64,000 nucleotides of DNA from Robiginitalea sediminis (GTDB lineage Bacteria > Bacteroidota > Bacteroidia > Flavobacteriales > Flavobacteriaceae): positions 186,001 through 250,000 of the forward strand of contig NZ_NGNR01000001.1 of the NCBI RefSeq assembly GCF_002198115.1. Direction: 5' to 3'. Shown here piece after piece: positions 1,443 to 34,839 of the stretch. The notes below the pieces were generated by a model that worked only from the letters and a program-made list of their open reading frames with translations, made no database searches and was not told the DNA's origin. The translations under genes and the position numbers were made by a program. The stretch's first letter is position 1; the number at the start of each line of letters is the position of its first letter.

Positions 1443-1462
1443 CTTTTGATGGTTTCTTGGGT

Positions 1463-2119: not shown

Positions 2120-2206
2120 GTGTGTTGAGTCGCTTGCAAGCTGCTTCCAAATATAGATAAGGAAAATGACTTGTCCGGGTATCCTGTACAAGGATCTGCC
2201 CCGGGG

Positions 2207-3383: not shown

Positions 3384-3477
3384 ATTCGCTATTGGCAAAT
3401 TCCACCCCTCCGTAATACCGATTGGCTAATTTAGCGAGGTACAAATTATCAGATCAGCATTATCCAAAGTTATTAAC

Positions 3478-3493
3478 ACGAAACCGTTTTCGT
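3478..3493. promoter_or_regulatory. Candidate LacI-family operator
   Basis: The 16-bp sequence ACGAAACCGTTTTCGT is palindromic at 7 of 8 base pairs and has a central CpG, the hallmark of LacI-family operators. It lies 95 bp upstream of the SusC start and about 240 bp upstream of the divergent LacI-type gene. Binding by the adjacent regulator is inferred, not shown. Confidence 0.5.
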
Positions 3494-3587: not shown

Positions 3588-6500
3588 ATGAAGATTACGC
3601 TACTGAAGGGCTTGTTGCTTGTCGGCGCATTTTTATGCTTCGGACTGGTGCAGGCGCAAGATGTATCAGGTACTGTTTCTGATGCAAACGGTCCGCTTCC
3701 GGGAGCCAGTGTGGTCGTTAAAGGAACCACCACGGGTACCCAGACGGATTTCGACGGTAATTATACGCTGTCGGGCGTACCCTCCGATGGAGTGCTGGTA
3801 TTCAGTTATATCGGTTATTCCACCCAGGAAATTGCCGTTAACGGGCAGTCCACTATTAACGTAACCCTGACGGAAGATGCCACGGCACTCGATGAAGTTG
3901 TGATCATCGGTTACGGTCAGACTACTGTTAAGGATGCGACAGGTTCGGTAACCGCAGTAACCTCCGACGACTTCAACGGCGGTGTCATCGCTTCCCCGGA
4001 ACAACTGATCCAGGGTAAGACAGCCGGTGTTAACATCCAGCAAACCAGTGGTGAGCCGGGTGCCGGGATCCAGGTAAACATCCGGGGTTCCAACTCTGTC
4101 CGCGGTAACAACAGCCCGCTGTTCGTAGTGGATGGGGTGCCGCTGTTCGGCCAGAACACCGATGCCTCCGGAGATACCGGACAGGGTGGAAGCGAAGTGG
4201 GTAACCCCCTTAACTTCCTTAACCCCAATGACATCGAAAGCATCTCTATCCTGAAAGATGCCTCTGCTACCGCTATCTACGGTTCACGGGGTGCCAACGG
4301 TGTTATCATCATTACTACCAAGAGCGGCCGCGGAGCCAGCGGCGGGCAGATCGAGTGGTCTTCCAGCCTGAGCATCTCCACCCCCGTTCGCAAGTACGAC
4401 CTGCTGGATGCCGACGGCTTCCTTCAGGCAGTTAGCGATTACGGCGGAAACCCGAACAACGTAAACTTCGGAGCCAACACAGACTGGCAGGAAGTAGTAC
4501 TGCGTACAGCCGCCTCCTCCAACCACAACATCGCCTACAGCCGCAACTACGGCTCCGGGAACGTCCGGGCCACTTTCGGTTACCAGAAGCAATTCGGTGT
4601 GGTTGAGAAGTCAGAATTTGAGCGGATTACCGGGCGCCTCAACCTGAACCAGCGCCTGCTGGATGACAAACTCATCCTGGGTCTTCAGGCTTCCGTAGGT
4701 CGCGTTAACCGGGAGCAGCCGCCTCTGGCTGCAGGAGCCGGATTCCGGGGTGACATCCTCGGTGCCGCCTACTCCGCCAACCCGACCTGGCCTTCCAACG
4801 CCGGCTTCGACGATGGTGGTGGGCAAATCCAGCCCGCCAACTACCTGAATGAAACTCAGAACCGCACCAACACCAACCGGTTCCTGATCAACGGTTCTGC
4901 CGAGTACAAGTTTACCCCGGAATTCTCCGCCAAGGTAAACCTGGGCTACGACCAGTCCGAAAGTGAGAACACTTCCGTACTGTCTACCAAACTCCAGAAC
5001 TTCACCGGTATTGAAGGAAACGGTTTCGGTACCTACAATACCCTGGACCGGGAAAACAAAACCCTTGAAGCTACCTTAAACTACGTTAAGGAATTCGAGA
5101 ACTCCAACCTCGACCTGCTCGTGGGTTATGCCTTCCAGGATTTCCGCACCTCCGGCCGCAACGCTGCCGGACGCGGGTTTGGTACTTCCGACCTGAACGA
5201 AATGGGCGATGACCTGCGCAACACCATCAACGCTGCCGCAGCCACCATCGACGGGTCTTACCAACAGTTCTACTACGGGACCAATACCTCCGGGCTGGTG
5301 GTTAACCGCCTCTTCCCGTCTGTTGTGGCCGGGGAAACCCAGTCCTTTCAGTTCCTCCGCGGCGTCCGCGCTGCGGTTGCCGATGTCTTCGACAACACCG
5401 ATGAGCTGCAATCGTTCTTCGGGCGTGTGAACTACAGCATTGCCGGCAAGTACCTCTTTACCGGTACCATGCGGGCAGACGGTTCTTCCCGTTTCGGTCC
5501 TGATAACCAATACGGGTACTTCCCCTCAGGAGCCTTCGCCTGGCAGATTGCCGAGGAGGATTTCATCGGGGAGAATGTCTCCACCCTGAAACTCCGTCTG
5601 AGTGCCGGTATCACCGGTAACCAGGATGGCCTTGGGTACGGAAACTTCGTAGCCCGCCAGCGTTTTGCCGGCCTGGGCATCAACAACGACAACACGGTTA
5701 ACCAAAACGGTCTTTCCATTGTTGCCACCGACGTTCCCGACCTGAAATGGGAATCTACCATCAACTTCAACGCCGGTCTCGATTTCGGGTTCAACCTGGA
5801 TCGTTTCAGCGGTAGTATTGATGTATACCGGAACGAAACCCAGGATGTACTGCTGCAAACGCCGCCGGCCGCGCCTTCTACCAACCCCTTCCAGTTTGGT
5901 AACGTGGACGCCAGCATCATCAACCAGGGTGTGGAACTCGCGTTGAACTACGACTTCGTACAAACCGAAGACGCCACGTTCTCCGCTTCCTTCAACATTG
6001 CCTACAACCAGAACGAGATCCAGGATTTCGCCGGCGCCATCAACACTGGTGAGATTGCAGGTCCCGGTCTTTCCGGAGCCTTTGCCCAGCGTTTCGAGGC
6101 GGGTCAGTCCCTGTTCTCCTACTACATGGCAGAGTTCCTTGGCTTCGACGCCAATGGAAACCCCCAGTACGAGGATGTTGACGGCAACGGTATCGGCGAT
6201 CCGGATTCCGACAAGAAATTCGTCGGAGAGGATGCCCTTCCGGATGTAACTACCGGTCTCAGCCTGAATTTCAACTACAAGAACTGGGATATGAGTGCCT
6301 TCTTCAGCGGGCAGTTCGGCTTCTCCGTTTACAACAACACGGCTAACTCCTTCTTCAACGCCGGCCAGATCGTTACCGCCCGTAACGTGACTGTCGACGC
6401 TGCCAACGCTGGCGAGAACGGAGGTGCTTCCACTGCGGTATCTACACGTTTCCTTGAAAAAGGAGATTTTGTACGGTTCCAGAACGCAACCATTGGCTAC

Positions 6501-6713
6501 AACGTGCCTCTTACTGGAGACGGGACGTTCAAGAGCCTGAGGTTCTCCCTTACCGGTCAGAACCTGCTGCTGATCACCGATTACAGCGGTATCGATCCTG
6601 AAGTTACCGTACCTACCGGTACGCTTGGTTCAGGAGTACCGACCCGGGGTATCGACTGGGCCGCGTTCCCGAACCCGCTTACTGTAACCTTTGGAATTAA
6701 CGCCACCTTTTAA
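3588..6713 (+). CDS. SusC-like TonB-dependent outer-membrane transporter
   Basis: A 1,041-residue SusC-type importer. It has a signal peptide (residues 1-23, ending VQAQ), an N-terminal carboxypeptidase-regulatory-like beta-sandwich (about 25-100) with the typical PLPGASVVVKGT pattern, a TonB plug (about 110-225, including the SusC-family SISILKDASATAIYGSRGANGV stretch), and a long beta-barrel ending in a hydrophobic strand with a C-terminal Phe. It would move a substrate captured by the SusD partner 18 bp downstream across the outer membrane using TonB energy. No SusE/SusF or GH13 gene follows, unlike classical starch loci, so the ligand is uncertain. The divergent LacI/pgmB/GH65 block argues for an alpha-glucoside, whereas the FG-GAP cassette downstream argues for something else. 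Confidence 0.95.
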   Translation: MKITLLKGLLLVGAFLCFGLVQAQDVSGTVSDANGPLPGASVVVKGTTTGTQTDFDGNYTLSGVPSDGVLVFSYIGYSTQEIAVNGQSTINVTLTEDATALDEVVIIGYGQTTVKDATGSVTAVTSDDFNGGVIASPEQLIQGKTAGVNIQQTSGEPGAGIQVNIRGSNSVRGNNSPLFVVDGVPLFGQNTDASGDTGQGGSEVGNPLNFLNPNDIESISILKDASATAIYGSRGANGVIIITTKSGRGASGGQIEWSSSLSISTPVRKYDLLDADGFLQAVSDYGGNPNNVNFGANTDWQEVVLRTAASSNHNIAYSRNYGSGNVRATFGYQKQFGVVEKSEFERITGRLNLNQRLLDDKLILGLQASVGRVNREQPPLAAGAGFRGDILGAAYSANPTWPSNAGFDDGGGQIQPANYLNETQNRTNTNRFLINGSAEYKFTPEFSAKVNLGYDQSESENTSVLSTKLQNFTGIEGNGFGTYNTLDRENKTLEATLNYVKEFENSNLDLLVGYAFQDFRTSGRNAAGRGFGTSDLNEMGDDLRNTINAAAATIDGSYQQFYYGTNTSGLVVNRLFPSVVAGETQSFQFLRGVRAAVADVFDNTDELQSFFGRVNYSIAGKYLFTGTMRADGSSRFGPDNQYGYFPSGAFAWQIAEEDFIGENVSTLKLRLSAGITGNQDGLGYGNFVARQRFAGLGINNDNTVNQNGLSIVATDVPDLKWESTINFNAGLDFGFNLDRFSGSIDVYRNETQDVLLQTPPAAPSTNPFQFGNVDASIINQGVELALNYDFVQTEDATFSASFNIAYNQNEIQDFAGAINTGEIAGPGLSGAFAQRFEAGQSLFSYYMAEFLGFDANGNPQYEDVDGNGIGDPDSDKKFVGEDALPDVTTGLSLNFNYKNWDMSAFFSGQFGFSVYNNTANSFFNAGQIVTARNVTVDAANAGENGGASTAVSTRFLEKGDFVRFQNATIGYNVPLTGDGTFKSLRFSLTGQNLLLITDYSGIDPEVTVPTGTLGSGVPTRGIDWAAFPNPLTVTFGINATF

Positions 6714-6731
6714 TTAAAAAAATTGTCTATC

Positions 6732-8354
6732 ATGAAAAGATATCTGAAGTATTTTTCTTTATCTCTGTTGGCGGTATTCGCCCTCGGTTCCTGTACAGAC
6801 CTGGAAATCGAGGAAACGGATTCCTTCATCAGCGAAGGGTTCCAGGGTCTTGAAGACCCCACCTCTGCGCTGAACCAGCTCTATAACCAGGTAGGAGGCC
6901 AGCTTGGCGACCAGGCCAACACCTACGCCCTTACCACCGTTACCACAGACGAACAGCTCATCCCTACCCGGGGTGCAGACTGGGGGGATAACGGACGTTG
7001 GAGGAAACTCCACCAGCACGAGTGGGGCTTTGAGGAAACTGACATCCTCACCCCCTTCGACCAGTGGAACGCTAACCAGCTCCTCGCATCCCAGATCCTG
7101 GATGACCGTACCGGAGCCCCGGCCGATGTAGCTGCCCAAGCCCGCTTCCTGCGCGCCTGGTCTATGTTCATCATCCTGGATTTCTACGGACAGGTTCCTT
7201 TCCGCGACACCCAGCTCTCTTCCTCAGAACTGCCTTCTGTCCTGACAGGAGCAGAAGCTGTTAGCTTTATCCTTGCCGACCTGGATGCAGCCATCTCCGG
7301 ACTGCCTGCCGTTCAGGCCGGAACCGGCGACCTGAGCAGGGCTTCCAAAGCCGCTGCCCGGATGCTGAAGGCTAAAGTGCTGCTGAACCGCCACATCTAC
7401 GAGAACCAACTCACTGGTGGAGGCGGGTCTCCCGCAGCCGGCGATATGCAGGAAGTAATCAGCCTGGTAGATCAGATTGCCGCCGATGGCTACGCCCTGC
7501 AAAGCGGCTACTTCGAAATCTTCGAAAACAGCGCTGACAGCGAAACCATCTGGTTCATCAACTCCGGTAACACCGGTAACCGTATCTTCAACGGGTTGCA
7601 CTACAACTCTACCGGTCTCGGTGGAGGAGGGTGGAACGGCTTCAGCACCCTTGCTGAGTTCTACGACCTCTTTGAAGGCGATGCCAACCAGAACCGTTTT
7701 GCCACAGACCTGGAAAGCGCCCAGATCGATGGGCAGGAAGAGCGTCGTGGTGGCGTTCCTCAGGAAGGTGTTCCCTTCTCAGGTGCCGCCAATACCTCCG
7801 ACAATGGCGGGTATGAGGATGGCTCCAACGTAGGACTTGGTTTCCTCGTAGGCCAGCAGTATGCCCTTAACGGGACTGCCCTGGAAGATCGTCAGGGACA
7901 GCCCCTGGTATTCTCCCGGGAGTTTGTTGACGGAGATGGTAACGCCAGCCTGATTAACAACGACGAGAAAACCGGTATCCGGGTAATGAAATACAGCCCC
8001 CGTTTCGGAGGAGGTTTCACTAACCACGTACTGGTTATGCGCTATGCCGACGCTCACCTGATGAAGGCAGAGGCCATGATGCGCAGCGGTGGCGACCCCA
8101 CTGCCATGGTAAACGAACTGCGTGTACTTCGCGGTGCTGCCCCTCTGGGTACCGTTACCGAGTCTGAGCTTCTGGACGAAAGAGGTCGTGAGCTCTACAC
8201 CGAAGGCTGGAGGCGTAACGATATGATTCGTTTCGGCCAATACCTGCGCAACTGGGAATTCAAGGCGGATACAGACCCCAAGCGTCTGCTCTTCCCCATC
8301 CCGCTGCCGCAGCTTCTGGCTAACCCGAACCTGGTTCAGAACCCGGGGTATTAA
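6732..8354 (+). CDS. SusD/RagB-like surface lipoprotein
   Basis: A 540-residue partner of the SusC protein upstream. The ATG at 6732 gives a lipoprotein signal ending LGSC, so mature Cys is residue 20. A TTG nine bases upstream is open but unnecessary. The body shows the SusD tetratricopeptide-like fold: ALNQLYNQVGGQ near the N-terminus, ARFLRAWSMFIILDFYGQVPF (about 137-157) and the C-terminal LLDERGRELYTEGWRRNDMIRFGQ pattern common to SusD/RagB. It should sit on the cell surface as the lid of the SusC barrel and bind the ligand. The protein is unusually Gly-rich around residues 225-310. A strong terminator follows 17 bp after the stop, so the SusCD unit is probably a separate transcript. Confidence 0.93.
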   Translation: MKRYLKYFSLSLLAVFALGSCTDLEIEETDSFISEGFQGLEDPTSALNQLYNQVGGQLGDQANTYALTTVTTDEQLIPTRGADWGDNGRWRKLHQHEWGFEETDILTPFDQWNANQLLASQILDDRTGAPADVAAQARFLRAWSMFIILDFYGQVPFRDTQLSSSELPSVLTGAEAVSFILADLDAAISGLPAVQAGTGDLSRASKAAARMLKAKVLLNRHIYENQLTGGGGSPAAGDMQEVISLVDQIAADGYALQSGYFEIFENSADSETIWFINSGNTGNRIFNGLHYNSTGLGGGGWNGFSTLAEFYDLFEGDANQNRFATDLESAQIDGQEERRGGVPQEGVPFSGAANTSDNGGYEDGSNVGLGFLVGQQYALNGTALEDRQGQPLVFSREFVDGDGNASLINNDEKTGIRVMKYSPRFGGGFTNHVLVMRYADAHLMKAEAMMRSGGDPTAMVNELRVLRGAAPLGTVTESELLDERGRELYTEGWRRNDMIRFGQYLRNWEFKADTDPKRLLFPIPLPQLLANPNLVQNPGY

Positions 8355-8371
8355 TCCCGATAGCCATACAG

Positions 8372-8400
8372 AAAAGGCCGCCCTGAGGCGGCCTTTTTTT
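8372..8400 (+). terminator. Rho-independent terminator after SusD
   Basis: An 11-bp perfect stem: AAAAGGCCGCC (8372-8382) pairs with GGCGGCCTTTT (8387-8397) around a CTGA loop, followed by further T residues. It separates the SusCD unit from the FG-GAP cassette. Confidence 0.9.
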
Positions 8401-8501
8401 ATACGCGGAATCCAAAAACTAATAAAAGATTAACAAGGGTAAAAGGATCGATAAAAGCCTGTGTTGTCGCCAGTAAACACGGGGCATTTCCCCTGATAAT
8501 C

Positions 8502-8512
8502 GCTAATTTAGC
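8502..8512 (+). promoter_or_regulatory. GCTAATTTAGC element upstream of the FG-GAP cassette
   Basis: An 11-bp inverted repeat (5-bp arms, one central base) ending 16 bp before the start codon at 8529. The identical sequence occurs upstream of SusC at 3425-3435. It contains TAATTTAG, one base away from the TANNTTTG -7 consensus, so it may be a -7 box rather than a protein-binding site. I see no TTG at proper -33 spacing. Confidence 0.35.
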
Positions 8513-8528
8513 AGCCCTTGAATTAGCT

Positions 8529-11500
8529 ATGCGGCCAACGATTATCACGCTTCTGACCCTGCTACTCCTTTCCGCATGCCGGGATGCCACCCCCCTATTC
8601 CGCGAACTCAAGCCCGGGCATACGGGGATTGCATTTGCAAACCGCCTGGAAGAAACCCCAGAGCTCAACATCCTCAATTACCTGTACTACTACAATGGAG
8701 CAGGCGTAGCGGCAGCGGACTTTAACAATGACGGGCTCATAGACCTGTACTTTACCGCCAACCAGCAGGCCGATGCCCTCTACCTGAACCAGGGCGGGTT
8801 ACAGTTCAAGGACATTACAGAGGCCTCCGGATTGCCGGTGGAGGCACTGGGCTGGACTACCGGGGTGACCCATGTGGATATCAACGCGGATGGCCTTTTG
8901 GATATCTACGTCTGCCAGGCCTCCGGCTACCGGAATCTCTCCGGGGTCAACCGCCTGTATGTCAACCAGGGCGTGGATGCCAATGGCATCCCCCAATTTG
9001 CCGAAAAAGCCGCAGACCATGGGTTGGATATCTCGGCCCTGAGCACCCAGGCCGCCTTTTTTGACGCCGACGGGGACGGCGACCTGGATGCCTTCCTGAT
9101 GAACCATTCGGTCCACCCTAACCGGAACTACGGGCGGGGGAGCCAACGACTGGGGTACGACCCCCTGTCCGGCGACCGCCTGTTGCGGAACGACAATGGC
9201 TTTTTTACGGACATCAGCCAGCAGGCGGGGATCTACCAGGGCAAGGCGGGATACGGCCTTGGCCTCGGCATCAGCGACCTGGACGGCAACGGGTATCCCG
9301 ATATCTATGTGGGCAACGACTTCTTCGAAAACGATTACCTCTATCTGAACCAGGGTAACGGGCAATTTGTGGAAGTAATTGCCTCCGATTCCTCCGGCGT
9401 GGGGCACACCACCCATTTCAGCATGGGCAATGACATTGCAGACCTGAACAACGACGCCCTCCCGGACATCCTTTCCCTGGATATGCTACCGGAAGACCTG
9501 GTCACCTACAAGACCTCCGGGCTGGAGTACGCCTACCCCATATACCGCCAATACCTGCAACAGGGGTTTGCCCCTCAATACATGCAGAATACCCTGCAGC
9601 TGAACCTGGGCGGCGGCCGCTTTTCCGAGGTAGGATACCTCAGCGGGGTTGCGGGCACCGAATGGTCCTGGGGGACCCTTATAGCCGATTTCGACAATGA
9701 CGGCTGGCGCGACATCTTTATCACCAACGGGATCAAAGGCGCCACCAACGATATGGACTATATGAACTTCATTGCCAATGAAGACATACAGCGCCGTATC
9801 GATGCAGGTATGCGGCAGTCCGATATGCCGCTTACCCGGGAGATCCCGCAGAAAAAGGTCCCCAACTATATCTTTCGCAATGAGGGAGACCTGGGGTTCT
9901 CCAACCAGAACGGTTCCTGGATGGACGCTCCTCCCTCCTTTAGCCACGGCTGCGTCTATGCCGACCTGGACCGGGATGGCGACCTGGACCTGGTGGTCAA
10001 CCACATGGACCAGACCGCTTCCCTCTATGAGAACACCCTATCCGGGGCGCATTACCTGGGCCTCCGTTTTGAAGGGCCCCATGCTAACCCCCACGGCATT
10101 GGCGCGCGGGTCTGGCTCTACGGTCCGCAAGGCATCCAAACCGCGGAAAATTTTCCAACCAGGGGCTATCTTTCGGCCGTTGCCCCTGAGGTGCACTTCG
10201 GTTTGGCAGAGACCCGCATCGATTCCCTGAAAGTCCTCTGGCCCGACGGTGCCACCCAGGTGCTGCGCCAAACCCCTGCCGACACCCTCCTTACCCTCCG
10301 CAGGGCCGATGCCCGGCCGGGTAAGGCATTCCCACAGGGACCCCCTCCCGTGTTACGCGCAAATGACTCCCTGTTCCCGGTACTGCATCGGGAGAACCCG
10401 GTCCTGGACTTCGACCGCGAACCCCTTATTGTGTATGCCGGGTCTACCCAGGGGCCTGCACTGGCTGTGTCAGACCTCAACGGCGATGGGCTGGACGACC
10501 TGGTCATAGGCGGGGCCAAACGCCAACCAACTGCCCTGTACCACCAGACAGCAGATGGGGATTTCCTCCCAGCCACCCCGGATATTTTTGAAGAAGACGC
10601 CCTTAGCGAGGATACCGCCCTGCTGCTGGTCGATGTAAACGGGGATGGCTGGACCGACCTGGTTACCGGGAGCGGCGGGAATGAATTTCGCGAAGGAGAG
10701 CCGTTGCAACCCCGGCTCTACCTTAACCGGGGCGGCCGCCTGGAAAAAACAACGGGAGCCTTCCCCGGAATAGAACTCAATGCCTCCCACATCAGCACCA
10801 CCGACCTGGAAGGAGACGGGGACCCGGACCTGCTCATCACTTCGGACGGGGTACCCGGGGCCTTCGGGAAGCCCCCTGTGCACTACTTGCTGGAAAATGA
10901 CGGCACCGGCACCTTCAAGGATGTCACCCATGCCCGCATCCCGGGTCTTACTGCTTCCGGGGCCATAAGTGCTGCCCAATGGGCAGATTTCAACGGGGAT
11001 GGCCGGACCGACCTGGCTGTAGCGGGACACTGGAGCCCGGTCCGCATCTTCCTGGCCAGGGGCAACCGCTGGGAGGAAGCTGCCGGAAACGGCCTTGAAA
11101 CTACCCATGGGTGGTGGAACGCCCTGCGCGCGGCAGACCTGGACGGGGATGGGGATACCGACCTCCTTGCCGGAAACTGGGGGCTCAACAGTAAATTCCA
11201 GGCCAGCCAAGAAACCCCGGTACGCCTCTATAGGAACGACTTCGACGAAAACGGCTCTGTAGAACCGGTGGTGACCTATTTCCATAAAGGAGTGGAAACC
11301 CCCTTTGCCTCCCGGGATGAACTGGCCAAACAAATGCCCTTCCTGAACAAGAAGTTCAGGACCTATAAGGCCTTTGCCCAGGCCAGCCTGCGCGAGGTCT
11401 TTTCGGATGAAGCCCTTCAGGCAGCCGAAAAAAGCGAAGTATACCTGCTGGCCAGCTGCATCTTCCGCAATGACGGGAAGGGTAACTTTCAAAAAGAGGA

Positions 11501-11813
11501 ACTGCCCCGGATTGCTCAGACCTCGGCGATTTTCGACTTTGGGGTGGAGGATTTCACCGGGGACGGCCAAACAGACGTCCTTGTGGTAGGCAACCACTAC
11601 GACATTAGCACCCAGCTGGGTAGGCTGGATGCCTTCCAGGGGTTACTTTTGCAGGGGGATTCCCGGGGCGGTTTCCGCTGGGACCCTCGAATGGACCCCT
11701 ATATCCCCGGGGCTGGAAGGTGTGTGGAACCCATCGAGATTGAAGGAAAAAAGACATGGATCATCGGCAGGAACAACGATACCCCCCTGCTGCTGTCCCA
11801 AACGAAAGAATGA
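8529..11813 (+). CDS. FG-GAP/VCBS-repeat lipoprotein with ASPIC/UnbV module (CRTAC1-like), first of three
   Basis: A 1,094-residue protein with a lipoprotein signal (lipobox LLSAC, Cys near residue 17). Two blocks of FG-GAP/VCBS repeats, rich in calcium-type loops such as DFNNDGLIDLY and DADGDGDLDA, flank an ASPIC/UnbV-like module at about residues 505-585 (NPHGIGARVWLYG, then VHFGLAE and LKVLWPDGATQVL). Each block is expected to fold as an integrin-type beta-propeller. No enzymatic motif is seen, so a ligand-binding or scaffold role outside the cytoplasm is the likely one. It begins a run of three paralogues: its TGA overlaps the next ATG. Such proteins are sometimes mislabelled RNA-binding; nothing here supports that. 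Confidence 0.85.
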   Translation: MRPTIITLLTLLLLSACRDATPLFRELKPGHTGIAFANRLEETPELNILNYLYYYNGAGVAAADFNNDGLIDLYFTANQQADALYLNQGGLQFKDITEASGLPVEALGWTTGVTHVDINADGLLDIYVCQASGYRNLSGVNRLYVNQGVDANGIPQFAEKAADHGLDISALSTQAAFFDADGDGDLDAFLMNHSVHPNRNYGRGSQRLGYDPLSGDRLLRNDNGFFTDISQQAGIYQGKAGYGLGLGISDLDGNGYPDIYVGNDFFENDYLYLNQGNGQFVEVIASDSSGVGHTTHFSMGNDIADLNNDALPDILSLDMLPEDLVTYKTSGLEYAYPIYRQYLQQGFAPQYMQNTLQLNLGGGRFSEVGYLSGVAGTEWSWGTLIADFDNDGWRDIFITNGIKGATNDMDYMNFIANEDIQRRIDAGMRQSDMPLTREIPQKKVPNYIFRNEGDLGFSNQNGSWMDAPPSFSHGCVYADLDRDGDLDLVVNHMDQTASLYENTLSGAHYLGLRFEGPHANPHGIGARVWLYGPQGIQTAENFPTRGYLSAVAPEVHFGLAETRIDSLKVLWPDGATQVLRQTPADTLLTLRRADARPGKAFPQGPPPVLRANDSLFPVLHRENPVLDFDREPLIVYAGSTQGPALAVSDLNGDGLDDLVIGGAKRQPTALYHQTADGDFLPATPDIFEEDALSEDTALLLVDVNGDGWTDLVTGSGGNEFREGEPLQPRLYLNRGGRLEKTTGAFPGIELNASHISTTDLEGDGDPDLLITSDGVPGAFGKPPVHYLLENDGTGTFKDVTHARIPGLTASGAISAAQWADFNGDGRTDLAVAGHWSPVRIFLARGNRWEEAAGNGLETTHGWWNALRAADLDGDGDTDLLAGNWGLNSKFQASQETPVRLYRNDFDENGSVEPVVTYFHKGVETPFASRDELAKQMPFLNKKFRTYKAFAQASLREVFSDEALQAAEKSEVYLLASCIFRNDGKGNFQKEELPRIAQTSAIFDFGVEDFTGDGQTDVLVVGNHYDISTQLGRLDAFQGLLLQGDSRGGFRWDPRMDPYIPGAGRCVEPIEIEGKKTWIIGRNNDTPLLLSQTKE

Positions 11814-14800
11814 AAATGAAAGCAAGACGACTTATAATAGCCCTCACGGGGATCTTTGCACTGGCATCCTGTGGCGACCAGCAGCAGGATAACGCAGGCG
11901 CAGCTGCCGGGCAGGAACCCCTTTTCACCCTGTTGCCTCCGGACAGTACCGGGGTCTCTTTTGTGAACCAGGTGGAAAACCAGAAGGAGTTCAACATTTT
12001 CAAATACCGCAACTTCTACAACGGAGGGGGTGTGGCCCTGGGGGACATCAACAACGACGGCCTCACCGATATCTTCCTTACCGGCAACATGGTGTCCAAC
12101 AAACTCTACCTGAACAAGGGGGGGTTCAAGTTCGAGGATATTACGGAATCTGCCGGGGTCGGGGGGAATAAACCCTGGTCTACCGGGGTCACCATGGCAG
12201 ATGTCAATGCCGATGGCCTGCTGGACATCTATGTGAGCAATGCCGGGAACATGGAAGGCAACAACCACGACAACGACCTGTATATCAACAACGGGGACAA
12301 TACTTTTACCGAGCGAGCCCACGAATTCAACCTGGCCGAAACGGGGTTCACCACGCATGCGACCTTCTTCGATTACGACAAGGACGGGGACCTGGATGCC
12401 TATATCCTGAACAACAGCAACATCCCTGTAAGCAGCCTGGGCTATGCCGAGCAGCGGGAGGTCCGCGCCCAGGACTGGGAAGGCGTCCCGCATATCTTCC
12501 GCGGCGTGGGCGACATGCTGCTGCGCAACGACGGGGGTACTTTTACAGACGTAAGCGAGTCGGCAGGTATCTACGGCAGCCTCATCGGTTTTGGCCTGGG
12601 GGTATTGGTGTCGGATTTTAACCAGGACCTGTACCCGGACATTTATGTCTCCAACGACTTCTACGAACGGGACTACCTCTACATCAACAACCAGGACGGG
12701 ACCTTCAGCGAACAGATCAAGGACTGGACCGGCCACCTGAGCCTTTCGGCCATGGGGATCGATATCGGGGATATCAATAACGACGGGCACCAGGACGTGT
12801 TTATAACCGACATGCTCCCCGAAGCCGAGCAGCGGGTAAAATCCGTTATGGAATTTGAAGGGTACAATGTCTACAAACTCAAGGAGGGCAAGGACTTCGG
12901 CCACCAGTACATCCAGAATACCCTGCAGCTCAACAACGGGAACGGGACGTTTTCCGAAGTGGCTTACTACAGTGGGGTTCATGCCACCGACTGGAGCTGG
13001 GCCGGGCTGATGTTCGACATGGACAATGACGGGTACCGGGATATCTTTGTGACCAACGGGATCAACCACGACCTTACGGACCTGGATTTTGTGGATTTCT
13101 TCGCCAATGAAATCATCCAGAAAATGGCCCTGACCGGCCGGAAGGAATCCATCGATTCCATCATCCAGAAAATGCCCATTAAACCTCAGCCCAATTACGC
13201 CTTCCGCAACAAGGGCGACCTGACCTTCAGCAATGCCAATGCAGACTGGGGCTTCGAACTCCCCACCCGTTCCAACGGCGCTGCCTACGGGGACCTGGAC
13301 AACGACGGCGACCTGGACCTGGTGGTCAACAACGTAAACATGCCCGCCTTTGTGTATCGCAACAATACCGAAACCCAAACCGACCACCACTACATCAGGT
13401 TCCGCTTCCTCGGCACGGACCAGAACCCCTTTGGGGTGGGAGCCACCGTGAGGGCCTACGCCAATGATCAGGTATGGGTTCAGGAACTGGTTCCCTCCAG
13501 GGGGTTCCAGTCTTCGGTGGACTACCGCATTACCTTCGGCCTGGGGGCCACTACCCAACTGGACTCCCTGCGGGTGATCTGGCCGGACGACAAAACCCAG
13601 GTCCTGACAGGGGTTGCGGCCGACCAGGAGGTCCTGTTGGACTATGCCAGCGCCAAGGAGGTATACCAGGTACCCCGGGCAGGAACTACCCCTTCCCTGC
13701 TCACCGAAGTACCCCTACAGGGGGTGAAGTCCCACAACGAAGACCTCTATAACGACTTCGACCACGAAGGGCTTATTTACGGGAAGCTCTCCCAGGAAGG
13801 CCCGGCCCTGGCCGTAGCCGATGTGGACGGGGACGGAAACGACGACTTTTACCTGGGGGGCGCCTCGGGGGAAAATGGCTCCTTGTACCTCCACCGCGGG
13901 CAGGGCAGACTCACCGAGAAACCATCCGCGGCATTCACAGCGGATGCAGCCTTCGAAGACACGGCAGCAGCCTTCTTCGACGCCGACGGGGACGGAGACC
14001 AGGACCTGATGGTCGCCTCCGGCGGGAACCAGGCAGACCGGTACCGTACCTACCGCCCCCGGCTGTACTTGAATGACGGAAAGGGGAACTTCGTTAAATC
14101 GGCCCAGGAACTGCCCACCAGCTTTAAGAACATGGCCACGGTAAGCCCCTACGACTTTGACGGGGATGGAGATGTGGATGTCTTTATTGGCTCGCGTTCG
14201 GTAGCCGGCATCTACGGTGTAGACCCGGACCACCTCCTCTTGGAGAACGACGGGTCCGGAAATTTCCAGAACGTCACAGACCGGGCCGGGAATGCCCTGA
14301 AGTACGCCGGGATGGTGACCGATGCCCAATGGGCGGATATGGACGGGGACGGCCGTAAAGACCTGCTGACCGTAGCAGACTGGGGGACCCCGAAGATCTA
14401 CACCAACAATGGCCGGCGGCTCAGCCCCATGGCCACAAGCCTGGACACCCTGGACGGCTGGTGGAACGCCCTTGCAGTCGCAGACCTGGACGGGGACGGG
14501 GACCAGGACCTGATCCTGGGCAACCAGGGGTCCAACCTGCATTACAAGCCCACCCCGGGCAAACCCATGAAGATGTGGGTAAATGATTTCGACGGGAATG
14601 GGACCCTGGAACAGGTGGTTACCCTCACCAATGAGGCAGGGGACTACCCCCTGCACCAGAAAAAGGAACTCACCGCCCAGGTGGTATCCCTCAAAAAAGA
14701 AAACCTGAAGGCCTCGGTCTACGCCGCCCGGACCATCCACGAACTGTTCCCCGGGGAACTGGTAAACCGCTCCATAGTGAAACGGGCCGTGATTTCCGAA

Positions 14801-15166
14801 TCGGTCCTGGCTATCAACGAGGGCAACGGGCAATTCCGCATCCAGGTACTACCGCCCCGCGTCCAGTTCTCATGCCTCTGCGACATCGCCTGTACGGACA
14901 TCAACCAGGACGGGAATCTGGACCTGATTATGGCCGGGAACAATTACGAATTCAAGCCACAGTTCTCCCGCCTGGATGCCAGCTACGGGAATGTACTGTT
15001 GGGGGATGGCGCCCTTGGCTTTGAGTGGCAGCCCTACGACCGCAGCGGCTTTGTCATGCGGGAAGAAGTGAAATACCTGCGCGAGCTTAAGGACCGGGAG
15101 GGACGTACCTACCTCCTGGCCGCGGCCAACGACAGCAAACCGAGATTATTTGCCATCAATGAGTAG
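11810..15166 (+). CDS. FG-GAP/VCBS-repeat lipoprotein with ASPIC/UnbV module, second of three
   Basis: A 1,118-residue paralogue of its neighbours. The ATG at 11810 overlaps the preceding TGA (ATGA), implying translational coupling; an ATG two codons later (11816) is an alternative. The lipobox is LASC (Cys near residue 21). The opening after the signal (GVSFVNQVENQKEFNIFKY, then GGGVALGDINNDGLTDIF) matches the first and third copies. The first repeat block spans about residues 40-510, the ASPIC/UnbV-like module about 525-600 (NPFGVGATVRAYA, RVIWPDDKTQVL) and the second block about 640-1100. Many DxDxDG or DxNxDG loops suggest calcium binding. No catalytic motif was recognised. Confidence 0.85.
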   Translation: MKMKARRLIIALTGIFALASCGDQQQDNAGAAAGQEPLFTLLPPDSTGVSFVNQVENQKEFNIFKYRNFYNGGGVALGDINNDGLTDIFLTGNMVSNKLYLNKGGFKFEDITESAGVGGNKPWSTGVTMADVNADGLLDIYVSNAGNMEGNNHDNDLYINNGDNTFTERAHEFNLAETGFTTHATFFDYDKDGDLDAYILNNSNIPVSSLGYAEQREVRAQDWEGVPHIFRGVGDMLLRNDGGTFTDVSESAGIYGSLIGFGLGVLVSDFNQDLYPDIYVSNDFYERDYLYINNQDGTFSEQIKDWTGHLSLSAMGIDIGDINNDGHQDVFITDMLPEAEQRVKSVMEFEGYNVYKLKEGKDFGHQYIQNTLQLNNGNGTFSEVAYYSGVHATDWSWAGLMFDMDNDGYRDIFVTNGINHDLTDLDFVDFFANEIIQKMALTGRKESIDSIIQKMPIKPQPNYAFRNKGDLTFSNANADWGFELPTRSNGAAYGDLDNDGDLDLVVNNVNMPAFVYRNNTETQTDHHYIRFRFLGTDQNPFGVGATVRAYANDQVWVQELVPSRGFQSSVDYRITFGLGATTQLDSLRVIWPDDKTQVLTGVAADQEVLLDYASAKEVYQVPRAGTTPSLLTEVPLQGVKSHNEDLYNDFDHEGLIYGKLSQEGPALAVADVDGDGNDDFYLGGASGENGSLYLHRGQGRLTEKPSAAFTADAAFEDTAAAFFDADGDGDQDLMVASGGNQADRYRTYRPRLYLNDGKGNFVKSAQELPTSFKNMATVSPYDFDGDGDVDVFIGSRSVAGIYGVDPDHLLLENDGSGNFQNVTDRAGNALKYAGMVTDAQWADMDGDGRKDLLTVADWGTPKIYTNNGRRLSPMATSLDTLDGWWNALAVADLDGDGDQDLILGNQGSNLHYKPTPGKPMKMWVNDFDGNGTLEQVVTLTNEAGDYPLHQKKELTAQVVSLKKENLKASVYAARTIHELFPGELVNRSIVKRAVISESVLAINEGNGQFRIQVLPPRVQFSCLCDIACTDINQDGNLDLIMAGNNYEFKPQFSRLDASYGNVLLGDGALGFEWQPYDRSGFVMREEVKYLRELKDREGRTYLLAAANDSKPRLFAINE

Positions 15167-18100
15167 AAGAGCCCTCATACCAGTACTCGTCCTGGGCCTC
15201 CTTGCGGGCTGTTCCCGCGGAGGGGAGGTTTTCGACCAACCCGGGCCCGGGGCCACCGGCCTGGACTTTACCAACCAGCTGCAGGAATCCGACCGGCTCA
15301 ATATCCTTGATTACCTCTACTTCTACAACGGGGGCGGGGTGGCCGTGGGCGATGTGAACCAGGACGGGCTGCCGGACATCTATTTTTCCGGGAACCAGGT
15401 GGGCAACAAGCTCTACCTGAACCGGGGTGGCATGCAGTTCGAAGATGTGACCGAAACGGCAGGAGTAGCCGGGCAAAGCACCTGGAACACCGGTGCCGTG
15501 ATGGCCGACGTGAATGCCGACGGCCTGCTGGACATCTACGTATGTGCCGTGGTGGGCATCAATGGCTTTACCGGCCACAACGAGCTCTTTATCAACAATG
15601 GGGACGGGACCTTCACCGAGCGGGCCGCCGAATTCGGGCTGGACCTGGACACCTACAGTTCCAATGCGGCCTTCCTGGACTACGACGGGGACGGGGACCT
15701 GGACATGTACCTGCTTAACCACGCCGTCCATACCCAGGACTCCTACGGGAAGGCGTCCCTGCGGTACGAGCGCAACTACGAGACCGGGGACCGGCTCATG
15801 CGAAACGACGGCGGGAGGTTCACCGACGTAAGCGAAGCGGCCGGCATCTATGGCGGCATCAATGGGTACGGGCTTGGGCTGGCAGTATCCGACTTCAACC
15901 AGGACGGCTACCCGGACCTTTATATCGGCAACGACTTCCACGAGGACGACTACTTTTACCTGAACAACGGAGATGGCACCTTTACGGAAAGCCTCCGGGA
16001 CTACTTCGGGCATACCAGCCGGTTTTCCATGGGCAGCGACGTGGCCGACATCAACAACGACGGGCGCCCGGATATGATTTCCCTGGATATGCTCCCGGAA
16101 GACGAGGTGCCCCTCAAATCCTCAGAGGGGGACGACAATGTGCAGACCCAGCGTATGCGCACCGAGGAATTCGGCTATTACTACCAGTTTACCCGCAATA
16201 TGCTCTACGTGGGGCAGCCGGACGGCCGCTTTAGCGAAACGGCCCTTATGAGCGGGGTTGCCGCCACCGACTGGTCCTGGAGTGCCCTTTTTGGCGACTG
16301 GAACCTGGACGGCCACCAGGACCTCTTTGTTTCCAACGGGATCCCCAAGCGCCCCAACGACCTCGATTTTGTGCGGTATATCTCCAATGACCAGATCAGC
16401 AGCACCATGGACAATACCCGCCTGGTAGACCAGGAAGCTCTGGAGATGATGCCCTCGGGGAATGTCCACAATTACGTCTTTGAAGGCCGGGAAGGTCTTG
16501 GGTTTGAGGACCGCAGCAACCAATGGATGCAGCCGGACACCCTGCTTTCCGGGGCAACGGCCTGGGCCGATTTCGATGCCGATGGGGACCTGGACCTTGT
16601 GGTGAATAACCTGAACCACCCTGCCAGCCTGCTGGTGAACAAAAGCGAAAAGAAGGGCAACTACCTGAAACTCCGCCTGCAGTTCTCCCCGAAAAACCGT
16701 TTTGGGGTGGGCAGCAAAGTCTTCGCCTATACGAATGCCGGAATGCTGTACCGGGAGCTCTTCCCTGTCCGTGGGTTCCAGGCGTCCTCCGAACCCATGG
16801 TTCACCTGGGCTTTTCCCCGGGCCAGCAAGTCGATTCCATCCGGGTGGTGTGGCCGGACAATACCTACCAGACCCTTGTGGCTCCCGACCTGAACCAAGA
16901 CCTGGTCCTGACCCCGGACGGCCCCAAACCCTTCGACTACAATTCTATCAAAACCCGCAGTAAATCTCTGTTTGTGCGGACACAGGATAACCTCGGGCTT
17001 CAGTTTACCCACCGGGAAGACCGGTACACGGATTTTAACCGGGAAAAACTCCTCCCCTACAGCTTTGCAGACCGCGGGCCTGCCTTTGCCGTAGGGGACC
17101 TGGATGGAGACGGGAAGCAGGATGTCTTTTTTGGCGGCTCCAAGCGCATCCCTTCCCAGGGCTTTATTCAACAGGACACTACCTTTATACCCTACCCTTT
17201 ACCAGAGATTACGGCAGACAGCCTCCCGGAAAATACAGCAGCCCTGCTAGCCGATTTCGACCGGGACGGGCAGGACGACCTCCTAATAGGAAACGGGGGG
17301 TCCGACTTCTTTGGCACTTCCAAACCCCTGCTGAACCAGTATTTCAAATACACCGGCGGGCAGTGGATGGAAGAAGGCCTTCCGGAGTCCTACAGCAATA
17401 CCGCGGTCCTGGCCCCTTACGATTTTGATGGGGACGGGGACCTGGACCTTTTTGTGGGCAACCTCTCCCTTACAGGACAATTCGGGTCTGCCCCGGATTC
17501 CTACCTGTTGGAAAACCAAAACGGCACCTTTATCCTGTCCGGGGCGCTGGACGGTAAAGGCCTGGGCATGGTAACCGATGCGTTGTGGACCGATTTCGAT
17601 GCCGACGGGGACGGGGACCTCATTGTTGTGGGGGAATGGATGGCCCCGGTGTTTTTTACCAACCGGGACGGCCGCTTTGAAGGGACTTCCAACCCAGCCC
17701 AAACCGGCCTGTGGCAATCGGTAGCGGCCATGGATATGGACGGGGACGGAGACACCGACATCGCCCTGGGCAACTGGGGTGCCAACTCCAAATTCAGGGC
17801 CTCGGAGGAACGCCCCTTGCGGCTATACCTCTCAGATTTCGACAAGGATGCCAGCCCGGACCCGGTTATCGCCACCGCCAAAGGCGATGGGTATTACCCC
17901 CTTGTGGGCCTGGACGAACTGGGGTCCCAGATGGTGTTTTTAAGGCGGAAATTCCCGAAGTACCGGGATTTTGCCGGACGCACTATGGAGGAAATTTTCG
18001 GGAAGGAAGCCCTGGAGGCCAGCAGGGTCTCAGAGGTGCGGGAGCTCCGCTCCGGCTACCTCCGAAACAACGGCGGCATCTTTGATTTTGTTCCGTTCTC

Positions 18101-18404
18101 TGAAGCCTTGCAGGTAGCCCCCATCCTGGAGCTCCTCCCTTACGATTTTGACGGGGATGGGACGGAAGAGCTTCTGGCAGCCGGGAACTATTTCGGGCTG
18201 AAACCCTACCAGGGGCGGCTGGACGGCTTTCCGGGGGCTCTCATAAAACCGGATGGCCATGTGCTGCCAGCTAACGAATTGGGCCTGGAATTGCTCCATA
18301 AATCGGTACGCCACCTGAAGATAATTACCTTTAAAAACAAACCCTACCTGCTGGCAGTGTTCAACAATGCCCCGGTAGAAGTATATGCCTTAACCTCAAA
18401 ATAA
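15159..18404 (+). CDS. FG-GAP/VCBS-repeat lipoprotein with ASPIC/UnbV module, third of three
   Basis: A 1,081-residue protein. I chose the ATG at 15159, eight bases inside the end of the previous gene, because it leads straight into a lipoprotein signal with lipobox LLAGC. The two-propeller layout repeats: N-terminal FG-GAP block, ASPIC/UnbV-like module at about 505-575 (NRFGVGSKVFAYT, VVWPDNTYQTL), C-terminal FG-GAP block. The copies are clearly diverged in sequence, so the three are old paralogues with probably distinct binding roles and not a fresh duplication. The haloperoxidase-like gene starts eight bases after its stop. Confidence 0.85.
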   Translation: MSRRALIPVLVLGLLAGCSRGGEVFDQPGPGATGLDFTNQLQESDRLNILDYLYFYNGGGVAVGDVNQDGLPDIYFSGNQVGNKLYLNRGGMQFEDVTETAGVAGQSTWNTGAVMADVNADGLLDIYVCAVVGINGFTGHNELFINNGDGTFTERAAEFGLDLDTYSSNAAFLDYDGDGDLDMYLLNHAVHTQDSYGKASLRYERNYETGDRLMRNDGGRFTDVSEAAGIYGGINGYGLGLAVSDFNQDGYPDLYIGNDFHEDDYFYLNNGDGTFTESLRDYFGHTSRFSMGSDVADINNDGRPDMISLDMLPEDEVPLKSSEGDDNVQTQRMRTEEFGYYYQFTRNMLYVGQPDGRFSETALMSGVAATDWSWSALFGDWNLDGHQDLFVSNGIPKRPNDLDFVRYISNDQISSTMDNTRLVDQEALEMMPSGNVHNYVFEGREGLGFEDRSNQWMQPDTLLSGATAWADFDADGDLDLVVNNLNHPASLLVNKSEKKGNYLKLRLQFSPKNRFGVGSKVFAYTNAGMLYRELFPVRGFQASSEPMVHLGFSPGQQVDSIRVVWPDNTYQTLVAPDLNQDLVLTPDGPKPFDYNSIKTRSKSLFVRTQDNLGLQFTHREDRYTDFNREKLLPYSFADRGPAFAVGDLDGDGKQDVFFGGSKRIPSQGFIQQDTTFIPYPLPEITADSLPENTAALLADFDRDGQDDLLIGNGGSDFFGTSKPLLNQYFKYTGGQWMEEGLPESYSNTAVLAPYDFDGDGDLDLFVGNLSLTGQFGSAPDSYLLENQNGTFILSGALDGKGLGMVTDALWTDFDADGDGDLIVVGEWMAPVFFTNRDGRFEGTSNPAQTGLWQSVAAMDMDGDGDTDIALGNWGANSKFRASEERPLRLYLSDFDKDASPDPVIATAKGDGYYPLVGLDELGSQMVFLRRKFPKYRDFAGRTMEEIFGKEALEASRVSEVRELRSGYLRNNGGIFDFVPFSEALQVAPILELLPYDFDGDGTEELLAAGNYFGLKPYQGRLDGFPGALIKPDGHVLPANELGLELLHKSVRHLKIITFKNKPYLLAVFNNAPVEVYALTSK

Positions 18405-18412
18405 AAGAACTG

Positions 18413-19771
18413 ATGAAACTAAAATTCGGAATCCTGCTGCTTTCCGTCCTGGCCCTTGCCTCCTGTGGTACGCCGGACCAGCCTATCGTCATTACGCCGG
18501 AAGAGTACCACGCCTCCGTAGACCAGGTCACGGACATCATGGTGCACGACATTTTCAGCCCGCCGGTGGCCAGCCGGGTATACGTATACCCCAACATAGC
18601 GGCTTATGAAATCATGGCCCTCCACAACCCGGGGTACCGGTCCCTGCAGGGGCAGGTATCAGAGTTGGGCGCCATCCCGGAGCCCAAAGCCGGGGTCCCT
18701 GTTAATTATCGCCTGGCTGCCCTGGTGGCACATATGGACCTGAGCCGCCAGCTGATCTTCTCCGAAGAGATGATGACGCGTTTCCGCGACAGCCTCTACA
18801 CGGCCTGGTCCGAAACCAACCGGAAAGAGTTCGAGGCTTCCCGCGATTACGGCCTGGAGGTTGCCGGATTTATCGCCGGATGGATGGACAAGGACAATTA
18901 CAAGCAGACCCGCACCATGTCCAAATTTACCGTGGATACGGAGGAACCCTCCCGGTGGCAACCGACCCCGCCGGCCTATATGGAAGGCATAGAGCCGCAC
19001 TGGAGCAAGATCCGGCCTTTTGTGATCGATTCCGCCGCCCAGTTCAAACCCACCCCCCCGCCTCCCTTCTCCATGGAAGAAGGTTCGGATTTCTATAATG
19101 AGGTTAAGGAAGTTTACGATGTGAGCCTGGAAATCACCGAAAAAGGGGATGCCTCCGAGGAAGTGGCCATCGCCCAGTTCTGGGACTGTAACCCGTATGT
19201 ATCGGTCACCCGGGGGCACCTGATGTTCGCCACCAAAAAAATCAGCCCCGGGGCCCACTGGATCGGGATTGCCAAGATTGCCAGCCGGAAATCCGGAGCC
19301 GATTTCGACAAGACGGTTTATGCCTACACCAAAACCTCCCTGGCCATAGCGGACGGGTTTATAAGTTGTTGGGATGAGAAGTACCGCAGCAACCTGATCC
19401 GGCCGGAAACCCTGATCAACCAGTACATTGACGAGAATTGGAAGCCGGTCCTGCAAACCCCGCCTTTCCCGGAATACACCAGCGGCCACAGTGTGGTCTC
19501 CGGGGCTGCGGCTGTTGCCCTAACCAGCATTTTCGGGGACAACTTCGCCTTCGACGACGATACCGAACTGCCTTATGGCCTGCCCGTTCGTTCCTTTAAC
19601 TCCTTCCGGGAAGCCGCAGACGAGGCGGCCATCAGCCGGATGTACGGGGGCATCCACTACCGCGCAGCAGTTGAAATAGGTGTCAGCCAGGGGCGCAGCC
19701 TGGGCGCCTTCCTCGTAGACCATCTGCAGATGACCCAGGAAACGGCCATGGCCGAACCACAATCCGAATAA
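18413..19771 (+). CDS. Vanadium-dependent haloperoxidase/PAP2-superfamily lipoprotein
   Basis: A 452-residue protein with a lipoprotein signal (lipobox LASC). All three vanadate/phosphate-pocket motifs are present: Lys and Arg in KYRSNLIRPET (about 322-332), YTSGHS with the catalytic His (about 355-360), and the Arg/His pair in SRMYGGIHYRAA (about 408-419). Family members oxidise halides with H2O2 or act as acid phosphatases, and the pocket alone does not say which. The gene is 8 bp behind three FG-GAP/ASPIC lipoproteins and should be co-transcribed with them. Lipidation places it on the outside of a membrane. It is shorter than algal bromoperoxidases, as is normal for the bacterial group. 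Confidence 0.82.
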   Translation: MKLKFGILLLSVLALASCGTPDQPIVITPEEYHASVDQVTDIMVHDIFSPPVASRVYVYPNIAAYEIMALHNPGYRSLQGQVSELGAIPEPKAGVPVNYRLAALVAHMDLSRQLIFSEEMMTRFRDSLYTAWSETNRKEFEASRDYGLEVAGFIAGWMDKDNYKQTRTMSKFTVDTEEPSRWQPTPPAYMEGIEPHWSKIRPFVIDSAAQFKPTPPPPFSMEEGSDFYNEVKEVYDVSLEITEKGDASEEVAIAQFWDCNPYVSVTRGHLMFATKKISPGAHWIGIAKIASRKSGADFDKTVYAYTKTSLAIADGFISCWDEKYRSNLIRPETLINQYIDENWKPVLQTPPFPEYTSGHSVVSGAAAVALTSIFGDNFAFDDDTELPYGLPVRSFNSFREAADEAAISRMYGGIHYRAAVEIGVSQGRSLGAFLVDHLQMTQETAMAEPQSE

Positions 19772-19818: not shown

Positions 19819-20721
19819 ATGAAGAAACCTGTTAAGGTACTGGGCGGGATACTCCTTCTGGCCCTTGCCGGCTATTTGTTTGTCTATCCGAACGATTACA
19901 TTGTACGCTTCGAGGCCCGGACCTTCCCGGGCCCCATTAACCAAACCATCAAAATCTGGCACGAGGAAGTCGGGGTGGCGGACTCCCCGGTAACCCAGGA
20001 AGACCTGTACCACCTGGAACAGCTGGTACAGGCCGGGGATTCCGTCCACCGGTACCGCTGGGAAATCGAGCCCCTGACCGATTCCACCTCGAGAGTCACC
20101 GTCAAGGTACGGGACATGGACCACAGCCTGATGAACAAACTAAAGGTTCCCTTTGGGGGGTCGGCCGTGGAGATGGCGTCAAAACGCTACGTAAAGGAAT
20201 TCGCTGAAAGCCTGAAAACCCACATCGAGCAGTTCCGGGTCCGGATTGTAGGGGAGGCCGAAACGCCCAGCACTTTCTACGCCTATGTAAACCTGACCAC
20301 CTCCCAGCACAAGAAGGCTGCAGGGATGATGGACAACTACATGCTGCTGAGCAACCTGTTGTACCAAAACCAGGTTACCCTCAACGGCCCTCCCATGATT
20401 GTGGTAAACCGGTGGGAACAGGAGAAGGACAGCCTCAATTATAATTTCTGCTTCCCCATTATCCGCTCGGACCACCTTCCGCAGCACCCTGAGGTCTCCT
20501 ATAAAAGGATCTTCCCGGAGCGCGCCCTTAAGGCCGAGTATTACGGGAATTACATCACCTCGGACCGGGCCTGGTACGCCTTGCTGGACTACGCGGAGCA
20601 GAATGGCATCCCGGTGGACCCCACTCCCGTGGAGGTTTTCTACAACAACCCGAATACCGGGGGGGATATGCTCAACTGGAAGGCGGAAATTTACCTGCCC
20701 ATCCTGGAAGAAAATAAATAA
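19819..20721 (+). CDS. Membrane-anchored protein with C-terminal GyrI-like/effector-binding domain
   Basis: A 300-residue protein with one N-terminal membrane segment (residues 5-23, VLGGILLLALAGYLFVY). The middle (about 35-180) resembles SRPBCC-like anchored proteins. The last 70 residues (ALKAEYYGNYITSDRAWYALLDYAEQ onwards, ending AEIYLPI) fit the AraC-effector-binding/GyrI-like fold, which binds small hydrophobic ligands. There is no DNA-binding domain. It follows the haloperoxidase-like gene by 47 bp on the same strand, so it may be the last gene of that operon or a gene of its own. Function unknown; the domain assignment rests on pattern only. Confidence 0.6.
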   Translation: MKKPVKVLGGILLLALAGYLFVYPNDYIVRFEARTFPGPINQTIKIWHEEVGVADSPVTQEDLYHLEQLVQAGDSVHRYRWEIEPLTDSTSRVTVKVRDMDHSLMNKLKVPFGGSAVEMASKRYVKEFAESLKTHIEQFRVRIVGEAETPSTFYAYVNLTTSQHKKAAGMMDNYMLLSNLLYQNQVTLNGPPMIVVNRWEQEKDSLNYNFCFPIIRSDHLPQHPEVSYKRIFPERALKAEYYGNYITSDRAWYALLDYAEQNGIPVDPTPVEVFYNNPNTGGDMLNWKAEIYLPILEENK

Positions 20722-22515: not shown

Positions 22516-22575
22516 GGCGGGAAGTTGCCCCTAACCGGCCGGAGATCCCGGGCTGTTGGTTATCTTCGTACTGAT

Positions 22576-33240: not shown

Positions 33241-33250
33241 ACGCTTTATC

Positions 33251-34835: not shown

Positions 34836-34839
34836 GAGT

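Follow-up and report, generated by a model that had tools for sequence, protein, structure and literature searches.

A stretch of 64,000 nucleotides from the 3.3-Mb genome of Robiginitalea sediminis (G000:C1:186001-250000, hereafter the window) carries a SusC/SusD pair followed by three giant FG-GAP/ASPIC lipoproteins, here named ASP1, ASP2 and ASP3 in array order, an orthologue of a vanadium iodoperoxidase (VIPO) and a GyrI-like protein. We give an about even chance to the reading that this array is a LacI-controlled Sus-like uptake locus, in which calcium propellers stand in the place of SusE and SusF and a peroxidase oxidizes iodide at the cell surface. The parts are known; their combination did not turn up in the open-access papers searched, and the key papers of 2014 and 2007 may mention it. 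The reading is built on gene content and order, orthology, conservation, the operator, the terminator, the vanadate ligands and predicted folds. An earlier note on the window had interpreted the same genes as one candidate envelope system, which is partly supported here and corrected in its setting: the context is one of sugar catabolism with a regulator of the LacI type, a point absent from that note.

Organization of the locus

The genes and sites of the array and its regulator are as follows.

2207..3238, minus strand: LacI-family regulator, divergent from susC (Pfam and NCBIfam)
3478..3493, no strand: predicted palindromic LacI-type operator, ACGAAACCGTTTTCGT (sequence search)
3588..6713, plus strand: SusC/RagA TonB-dependent transporter (TIGR04056, 716 bits)
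6723..8354, plus strand: SusD-type surface lipoprotein (PF07980)
8370..8399, plus strand: predicted intrinsic terminator hairpin between susD and ASP1 (-21.3 kcal/mol, z -6.4)
8529..11813, plus strand: ASP1, FG-GAP/ASPIC giant lipoprotein (Pfam; own orthologous clade)
11810..15166, plus strand: ASP2, FG-GAP/ASPIC giant lipoprotein (Pfam; open reading frame (ORF) open from 11756, start inferred)
15159..18404, plus strand: ASP3, FG-GAP/ASPIC giant lipoprotein (Pfam; ORF open from 15150, start inferred)
18413..19771, plus strand: VIPO, vanadium iodoperoxidase orthologue, lipoprotein (phmmer, identity, vanadate ligands)
19819..20721, plus strand: predicted membrane-anchored GyrI-like ligand-binding protein (PF06445)

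The family matches bear out the SusC/SusD pair that had been read ahead of the ASPs, and the closest relative of the SusD in the PDB is SusD of B. thetaiotaomicron. The description of the ASPs as three tandem lipoprotein paralogues with overlapping ends also holds in its coordinates, lipoboxes and overlaps. Specifically, with internal starts ASP1 and ASP2 overlap by 4 bp and ASP2 and ASP3 by 8 bp; the lipoboxes are LLLLSAC, IFALASC and LGLLAGC, respectively. The GyrI-like protein was modelled with AlphaFold2 (AF2) as a hydrophobic N-terminal helix and a GyrI/SOUL-type fold.

Propeller lipoproteins

ASP1 has 1094 amino acids, ASP2 about 1118 and ASP3 about 1081, and their pairwise identity is 39-42%. 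In agreement with the FG-GAP blocks first noticed on both sides of the ASPIC module, Pfam finds nine FG-GAP_3 stretches in each ASP and one UnbV_ASPIC domain near the centre. Each protein contains 10-12 calcium loops of the form DxDxDGxxD, compared with 0.03 in shuffled sequence. The AF2 model of ASP2 (predicted local distance difference test score 83.7, predicted template modelling score 0.84) has murine CRTAC1 (9etn) as its top fold match in the PDB, with an E-value of 9e-26 and a template modelling score of 0.71 on the target, followed by multi-propeller proteins such as DDB1. In the phylogenetic tree, ASP1, ASP2 and ASP3 form three separate clades with support of 1.0, 1.0 and 0.99; the triple is therefore ancient and orthologous, with each position kept in a fixed order. 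Two more ASPs of the same genome also sit after SusCD pairs, and thus ASPs seem to be accessories of SusCD in general, at the position of SusE/F.

Two further SusC-SusD-ASP sets were located in this genome. The second set (L162, G000:C8:199000-218500, at 5550-17869) is divergent from genes for a GMC oxidoreductase, a gluconate 2-dehydrogenase subunit 3 and a xylose-isomerase-like TIM barrel, which looks like a sugar-oxidation pathway next to an ASP-type SusCD. The third set (L161, G000:C9:97000-116000, at 4520-15929) has a SusD-like_2 protein and two similar lipoproteins of ~325 amino acids between SusD and ASP, and adjoins apparent ribosomal protein genes and fusA.

An iodoperoxidase orthologue closes the array

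VIPO starts 8 bp after ASP3, carries the lipobox LALASC and matches PAP2 in Pfam. What had been called a haloperoxidase-like enzyme can be specified further: a phmmer search against the PDB gives 730 bits to VIPO of Zobellia galactanivorans (4CIT, 4USZ), to which the window enzyme is 70% identical over 432 residues with the same vanadate ligands intact. Residues K323, R330, P331, S357, G358, H359, R409 and H415 are invariant in all 62 of 62 homologues. The window enzyme is a vanadium iodoperoxidase orthologue, and by analogy it would share the halide preference of the Zobellia orthologue, which according to the literature oxidizes iodide and neither bromide nor chloride.

PAP2 phosphatases and vanadium haloperoxidases have a common active site. 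Together with the Pfam PAP2 match and the sugar-gene setting, this favours a function of VIPO in vivo as a PAP2-superfamily phosphatase, acting on a sugar phosphate or a phosphorylated glycan before import. We consider this improbable, as the Zobellia orthologue is described as, and named, a vanadium iodoperoxidase (PMC5064120, PMC13198595).

The gene of the best-matching named locus, from Zobellia uliginosa (L117), is 98.4% identical to 4CIT and lies in the order ASP1-ASP2-ASP3-VIPO-GyrI, closing the ASP array as it does in the window. Elsewhere, two tandem VIPO-like genes are followed by an ASP (L222), the reverse of the usual order. A distant vanadium chloroperoxidase-like protein of the window's own genome (PF22778, DUF6851; L164:7756-9366) is encoded away from ASP genes.

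Conservation of the neighbourhood

The relatives of this genome are Flavobacteriaceae. VIPO homologues were found in 63 of 149 family genomes, 58 of them at 50% identity or more. We read 44 VIPO contexts deeply (at least 20 kb each, 10.6 kb in one) and added 80 named VIPO loci from a genome collection, with at most 10 kb upstream visible. The order SusC-SusD-ASP1-ASP2-ASP3-VIPO-GyrI, or a close version of it, occurs in most of the 44 contexts, and a SusC/SusD-type pair lies upstream on the same strand in 39 of them. Of the 80 named loci, 66 carry an ASP immediately before VIPO, with at least two ASPs in 61 and at least three in 32; in 59, GyrI comes immediately after VIPO. The neighbourhood, whose presence in relatives had been set in advance as a check on the earlier note, is thus kept in dozens of genera from several families of the class. 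In these other families, identity to the reference set reaches 70% for SusC and 65% for the ASPs; three of their loci, L210, L211 and L213, have a GyrI gene and a GH65 (glycoside hydrolase family 65) gene, partly overlapping, between the ASPs and VIPO.

The co-occurrence that the note had asked about goes beyond chance. In ten complete or nearly complete genomes, and in a test that ignores shared ancestry, SusC lies within 6.5 kb upstream on the same strand in at least 15 of 33 ASPIC groups, against at least 0.35 expected (binomial 2e-21); it does so for at least 8 of 9 VIPO-linked groups and at least 7 of 24 other groups. All seven tandem ASP triples in these genomes adjoin VIPO, and in twelve further genomes without a full-length VIPO orthologue we saw no triple of full-length ASPs. 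ASP2 orthologues (50% identity or more) are present in 34 of the 149 genomes, 33 of which also have VIPO (Fisher 3.6e-16, kinship of genomes uncorrected), and the distance between the two genes is 3.2-3.6 kb in 31 of those 33.

In a second version, variant B, VIPO is accompanied by a distinct SusC and SusD, a distinct trio of ASPs and a lipoprotein of 192 amino acids; this version occurs in seven contexts of the family and in three distant ones. In the VIPO tree, variant B loci are scattered among variant A at four or five separate positions, some of them with modest branch support. VIPO seems, on this phylogeny, to have changed partners yet kept the same kind of partners, and this repeated re-pairing with other SusCD-ASP sets argues for a functional link.

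Several loci depart from these layouts. The 192-residue lipoprotein (L075:11843-12418), which has no Pfam match, is constant between the first and the second ASP of variant B. In other families, three loci (L214, L218, L220) have the order SusC, SusD, redox-type genes, one ASP and VIPO and represent a third version, in which the array has redox partners; the SusD of L214 is PF12771 and its redox-type genes match AhpC/TSA and, weakly, copper monooxygenase, while L220 has a cytochrome c match. Xylulokinase- and xylose isomerase-like genes lie between SusD and the ASPs in G026, G050, G080, G103, G104 and G129, and between the ASPs and VIPO in G011 and G018. A contig labelled Candidatus Rokubacteria (L154) has a typical flavobacterial ASP-ASP-ASP-VIPO-GyrI order with a VIPO 67% identical, and is probably a mis-binned record.

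A sugar-type setting and a predicted operator

Divergent from susC, the window continues the LacI gene with two sugar genes.

1463..2191, minus strand: beta-phosphoglucomutase-type HAD hydrolase, pgmB by context (Pfam HAD)
1..1460, minus strand: GH65, maltose phosphorylase-type, extending left beyond the window (translation)

Beyond GH65, still further to the left in the genome, are two GH13 genes, and the complete GH65 gene read in L165 has the Pfam N, M and C domains. This block, LacI-pgmB-GH65-GH13-GH13, is a maltose/alpha-glucan set and supplies the carbohydrate-active enzymes of the locus; elsewhere LacI stands with GH32/fructokinase instead. Near VIPO loci, LacI genes were found in 31 genomes, GH65 in 21, pgmB in 21 and GH32 in 8. 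The LacI gene is divergent to the cluster's susC in most contexts, and the pgmB-type gene is kept beside GH65 in 21.

The palindrome ACGAAAMCGKTTTCGT (3478-3493), with a central CG, ends 95 bp before susC, is the only copy in the genome and, with the divergent LacI gene, is predicted to be an operator. At 2 mismatches, the window contains one operator-like site against 0.07 expected per window. In about 30 contexts, belonging to both variants A and B, a site with at most 2 mismatches to the 14-bp core stands shortly before the cluster's susC or an adjoining small ORF, and such sites also precede MFS, GH13 and GH97 genes; 42 sites start with CGAA, compared with 5-8 in shuffles. In G077 and G096, a separate starch set of SusC-SusD-SusE-GH13 precedes the cluster (SusE and GH13 confirmed by Pfam on gene-cluster members), and the susC of the cluster is preceded by a separate, perfect core site. 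The recurrence of the operator, including these two cases, supports membership of the cluster in a LacI-type sugar regulon. The same two genomes led us to reject, as a full explanation, that the SusCD is merely the starch pair suggested by LacI, GH65, pgmB and GH13, as both have a SusCD and operator of the cluster's own.

A second shared element was also set aside. The 11-mer GCTAATTTAGC at 3425-3435 before susC and at 8502-8512 before ASP1 has only these two copies in the genome; it is absent from all other contexts, and was not used because it is unconserved and the chance sharing of an 11-mer is not very unlikely.

Transcription and surface display

The following points weigh against our interpretation. 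A strong terminator hairpin follows susD in the window, and similar hairpins do so in 16 of 26 contexts, so that co-transcription of susCD with ASP-VIPO is uncertain. The proposal of one envelope system accordingly stands for the neighbourhood, while a single plain operon is doubtful, a terminator often separating SusCD from ASP-VIPO. Some loci have ASP-VIPO without SusCD nearby (G108) or VIPO by itself (G125, L208, L221). In addition, iodide as the natural substrate is taken from an orthologue assayed in vitro by others. Acidic residues are typical of the surface-export signal (PMC5080379); the residues after the lipobox are clearly acidic in SusD (2.75 acidic, 0.08 basic) and mixed in the ASPs (1.67 acidic, 1.36 basic) and VIPO (1.49 and 1.41), and for this reason surface display of the ASPs and VIPO is uncertain.

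The gene overlaps favour co-transcription from ASP1 to VIPO, which may form a separate or a read-through transcript. A scan for sigma-70 promoters and terminators gave matches at background level, and itself missed the terminator at 8370.

Two separate functions could simply adjoin here: LacI would control a SusCD for alpha-glucan or fructan, and an independent ASP-VIPO unit with its own promoter would serve oxidative defence. The hairpins after susD would fit such a division, as would G108, in which ASP1-3 and VIPO occur without SusCD and a weak operator-like site precedes ASP1, and the XylAB and SSF genes that separate SusD from ASP in several genomes. However, a SusCD-type pair is found upstream in nearly all of the deeply read contexts and is retained even beside a starch SusCDE, and variant B swaps SusCD and ASPs together beside the same VIPO. 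We hold this division to be unlikely, a little more so than either iodine reading below.

Proposed function and possible iodine uptake

In the Sus-like uptake locus of marine Bacteroidota that we favour, LacI would release the single operator before susC when sugar arrives, and a small oligosaccharide or glycoside would enter through SusC/SusD. The CRTAC1-like, calcium-loaded propellers, two or three in number, would act as accessory ligand-binding or scaffold proteins at the surface; the earlier note had suggested that they may present a substrate to the oxidase and to SusCD. At the same surface, lipid-anchored VIPO would use H2O2 to oxidize iodide, which would consume peroxide, such as that of algal defence, and set free reactive iodine during feeding, while the membrane-anchored GyrI-like protein would bind a small molecule on the inner side. 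Here we infer the surface position, the transported ligand, the physical contact among the proteins and the in vivo role of iodide oxidation. The gene neighbourhood suggests that sugar feeding and iodine chemistry may be linked at the surface of marine flavobacteria.

The same genes could instead constitute an iodine uptake system. VIPO would oxidize iodide, and HOI or I2 would bind to, or react with, the propellers or the SusD ligand; SusCD would import the iodinated product, with sugar as the source of H2O2 and energy. For iodine uptake, Arenibacter sp. C-21 depends on glucose, oxygen and calcium; a system that generates H2O2 can substitute for glucose, and a haloperoxidase has been proposed (PMC5064120). 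Arenibacter genomes carry the locus (L088, L096, L128), and the calcium loops of every ASP would suit the requirement for calcium. Yet the C-21 trait has no gene tied to it in the accessible literature, the locus is present outside seaweed specialists too, and the adjoining symporters and regulator are of the sugar type and not of the iodide type. We regard this system as unlikely. That the locus underlies a sugar- and calcium-dependent uptake of iodine in marine flavobacteria, in which a dedicated SusCD, propellers and iodide oxidase would join in TonB-dependent import of iodinated product, seems to us marginally less likely again.

For the Zobellia iodoperoxidase, whose structure is known and whose physiological role is unclear, these results provide a conserved genetic home across many genera, made up of a SusCD importer, three orthologous giant propellers, a GyrI-like binder and a sugar-type LacI operator. 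Gene removal in tractable marine flavobacteria can thereby test the role of VIPO directly. The locus also yields candidate genes for iodine uptake by Arenibacter, which depends on glucose and calcium, and a plausible general place for the ASPIC/UnbV giant lipoproteins of Bacteroidota, as SusCD accessories.

Flanking genes

Downstream of the GyrI-like gene, two further genes were annotated.

20863..22515, plus strand: sodium/sugar symporter, vSGLT relative (799 bits to Vibrio vSGLT 2xq2)
22525..23493, plus strand: lipoprotein orf322, frequent neighbour (gene cluster of 20 contexts)

The SSF symporter is a frequent but inconstant neighbour of the cluster. We rejected its reading as an iodide symporter, since its match to the sodium/iodide symporter is 87 bits compared with 799 to vSGLT; the other flanking SSF clade, tried in the same way, is also nearest to sugar symporters. 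For orf322 there is no Pfam match above the cut-off. Genes for a GntP permease, a D-serine dehydratase-like protein and an M19 dipeptidase adjoin at 31924-35913 of the window, likely a D-amino-acid or dipeptide catabolic set.

Comparison with known systems

Open-access papers on the Zobellia VIPO describe the enzyme and not its gene neighbourhood. With the trait of Arenibacter sp. C-21, the locus shares the genus, which carries it, and the involvement of haloperoxidase, calcium and sugar; the trait is physiological and without assigned genes, and its link to the locus is our suggestion. The GyrI-like fold resembles CtaZ, CTR107 and EcmrR, and such folds bind aromatic small molecules in known cases.

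The ASPs resemble CRTAC1 and other ASPIC-UnbV proteins in having a UnbV_ASPIC domain with FG-GAP repeats and in the top fold match. In contrast to CRTAC1, they are ~2x longer, have FG-GAP blocks on both sides of ASPIC, and are bacterial lipoproteins in tandem triples.

Among the cluster genes, Pfam finds no SusE match, which occurs only in the separate adjoining starch set of relatives such as G096. The locus is like the starch SusCDEF polysaccharide utilization locus in its SusC/SusD pair, its LacI with GH13/GH65 and its accessory lipoproteins right after SusD. It differs from SusCDEF in that FG-GAP/ASPIC propellers occupy the place of SusE and SusF, and in that the lipid-anchored enzyme is a peroxidase rather than a glycoside hydrolase.

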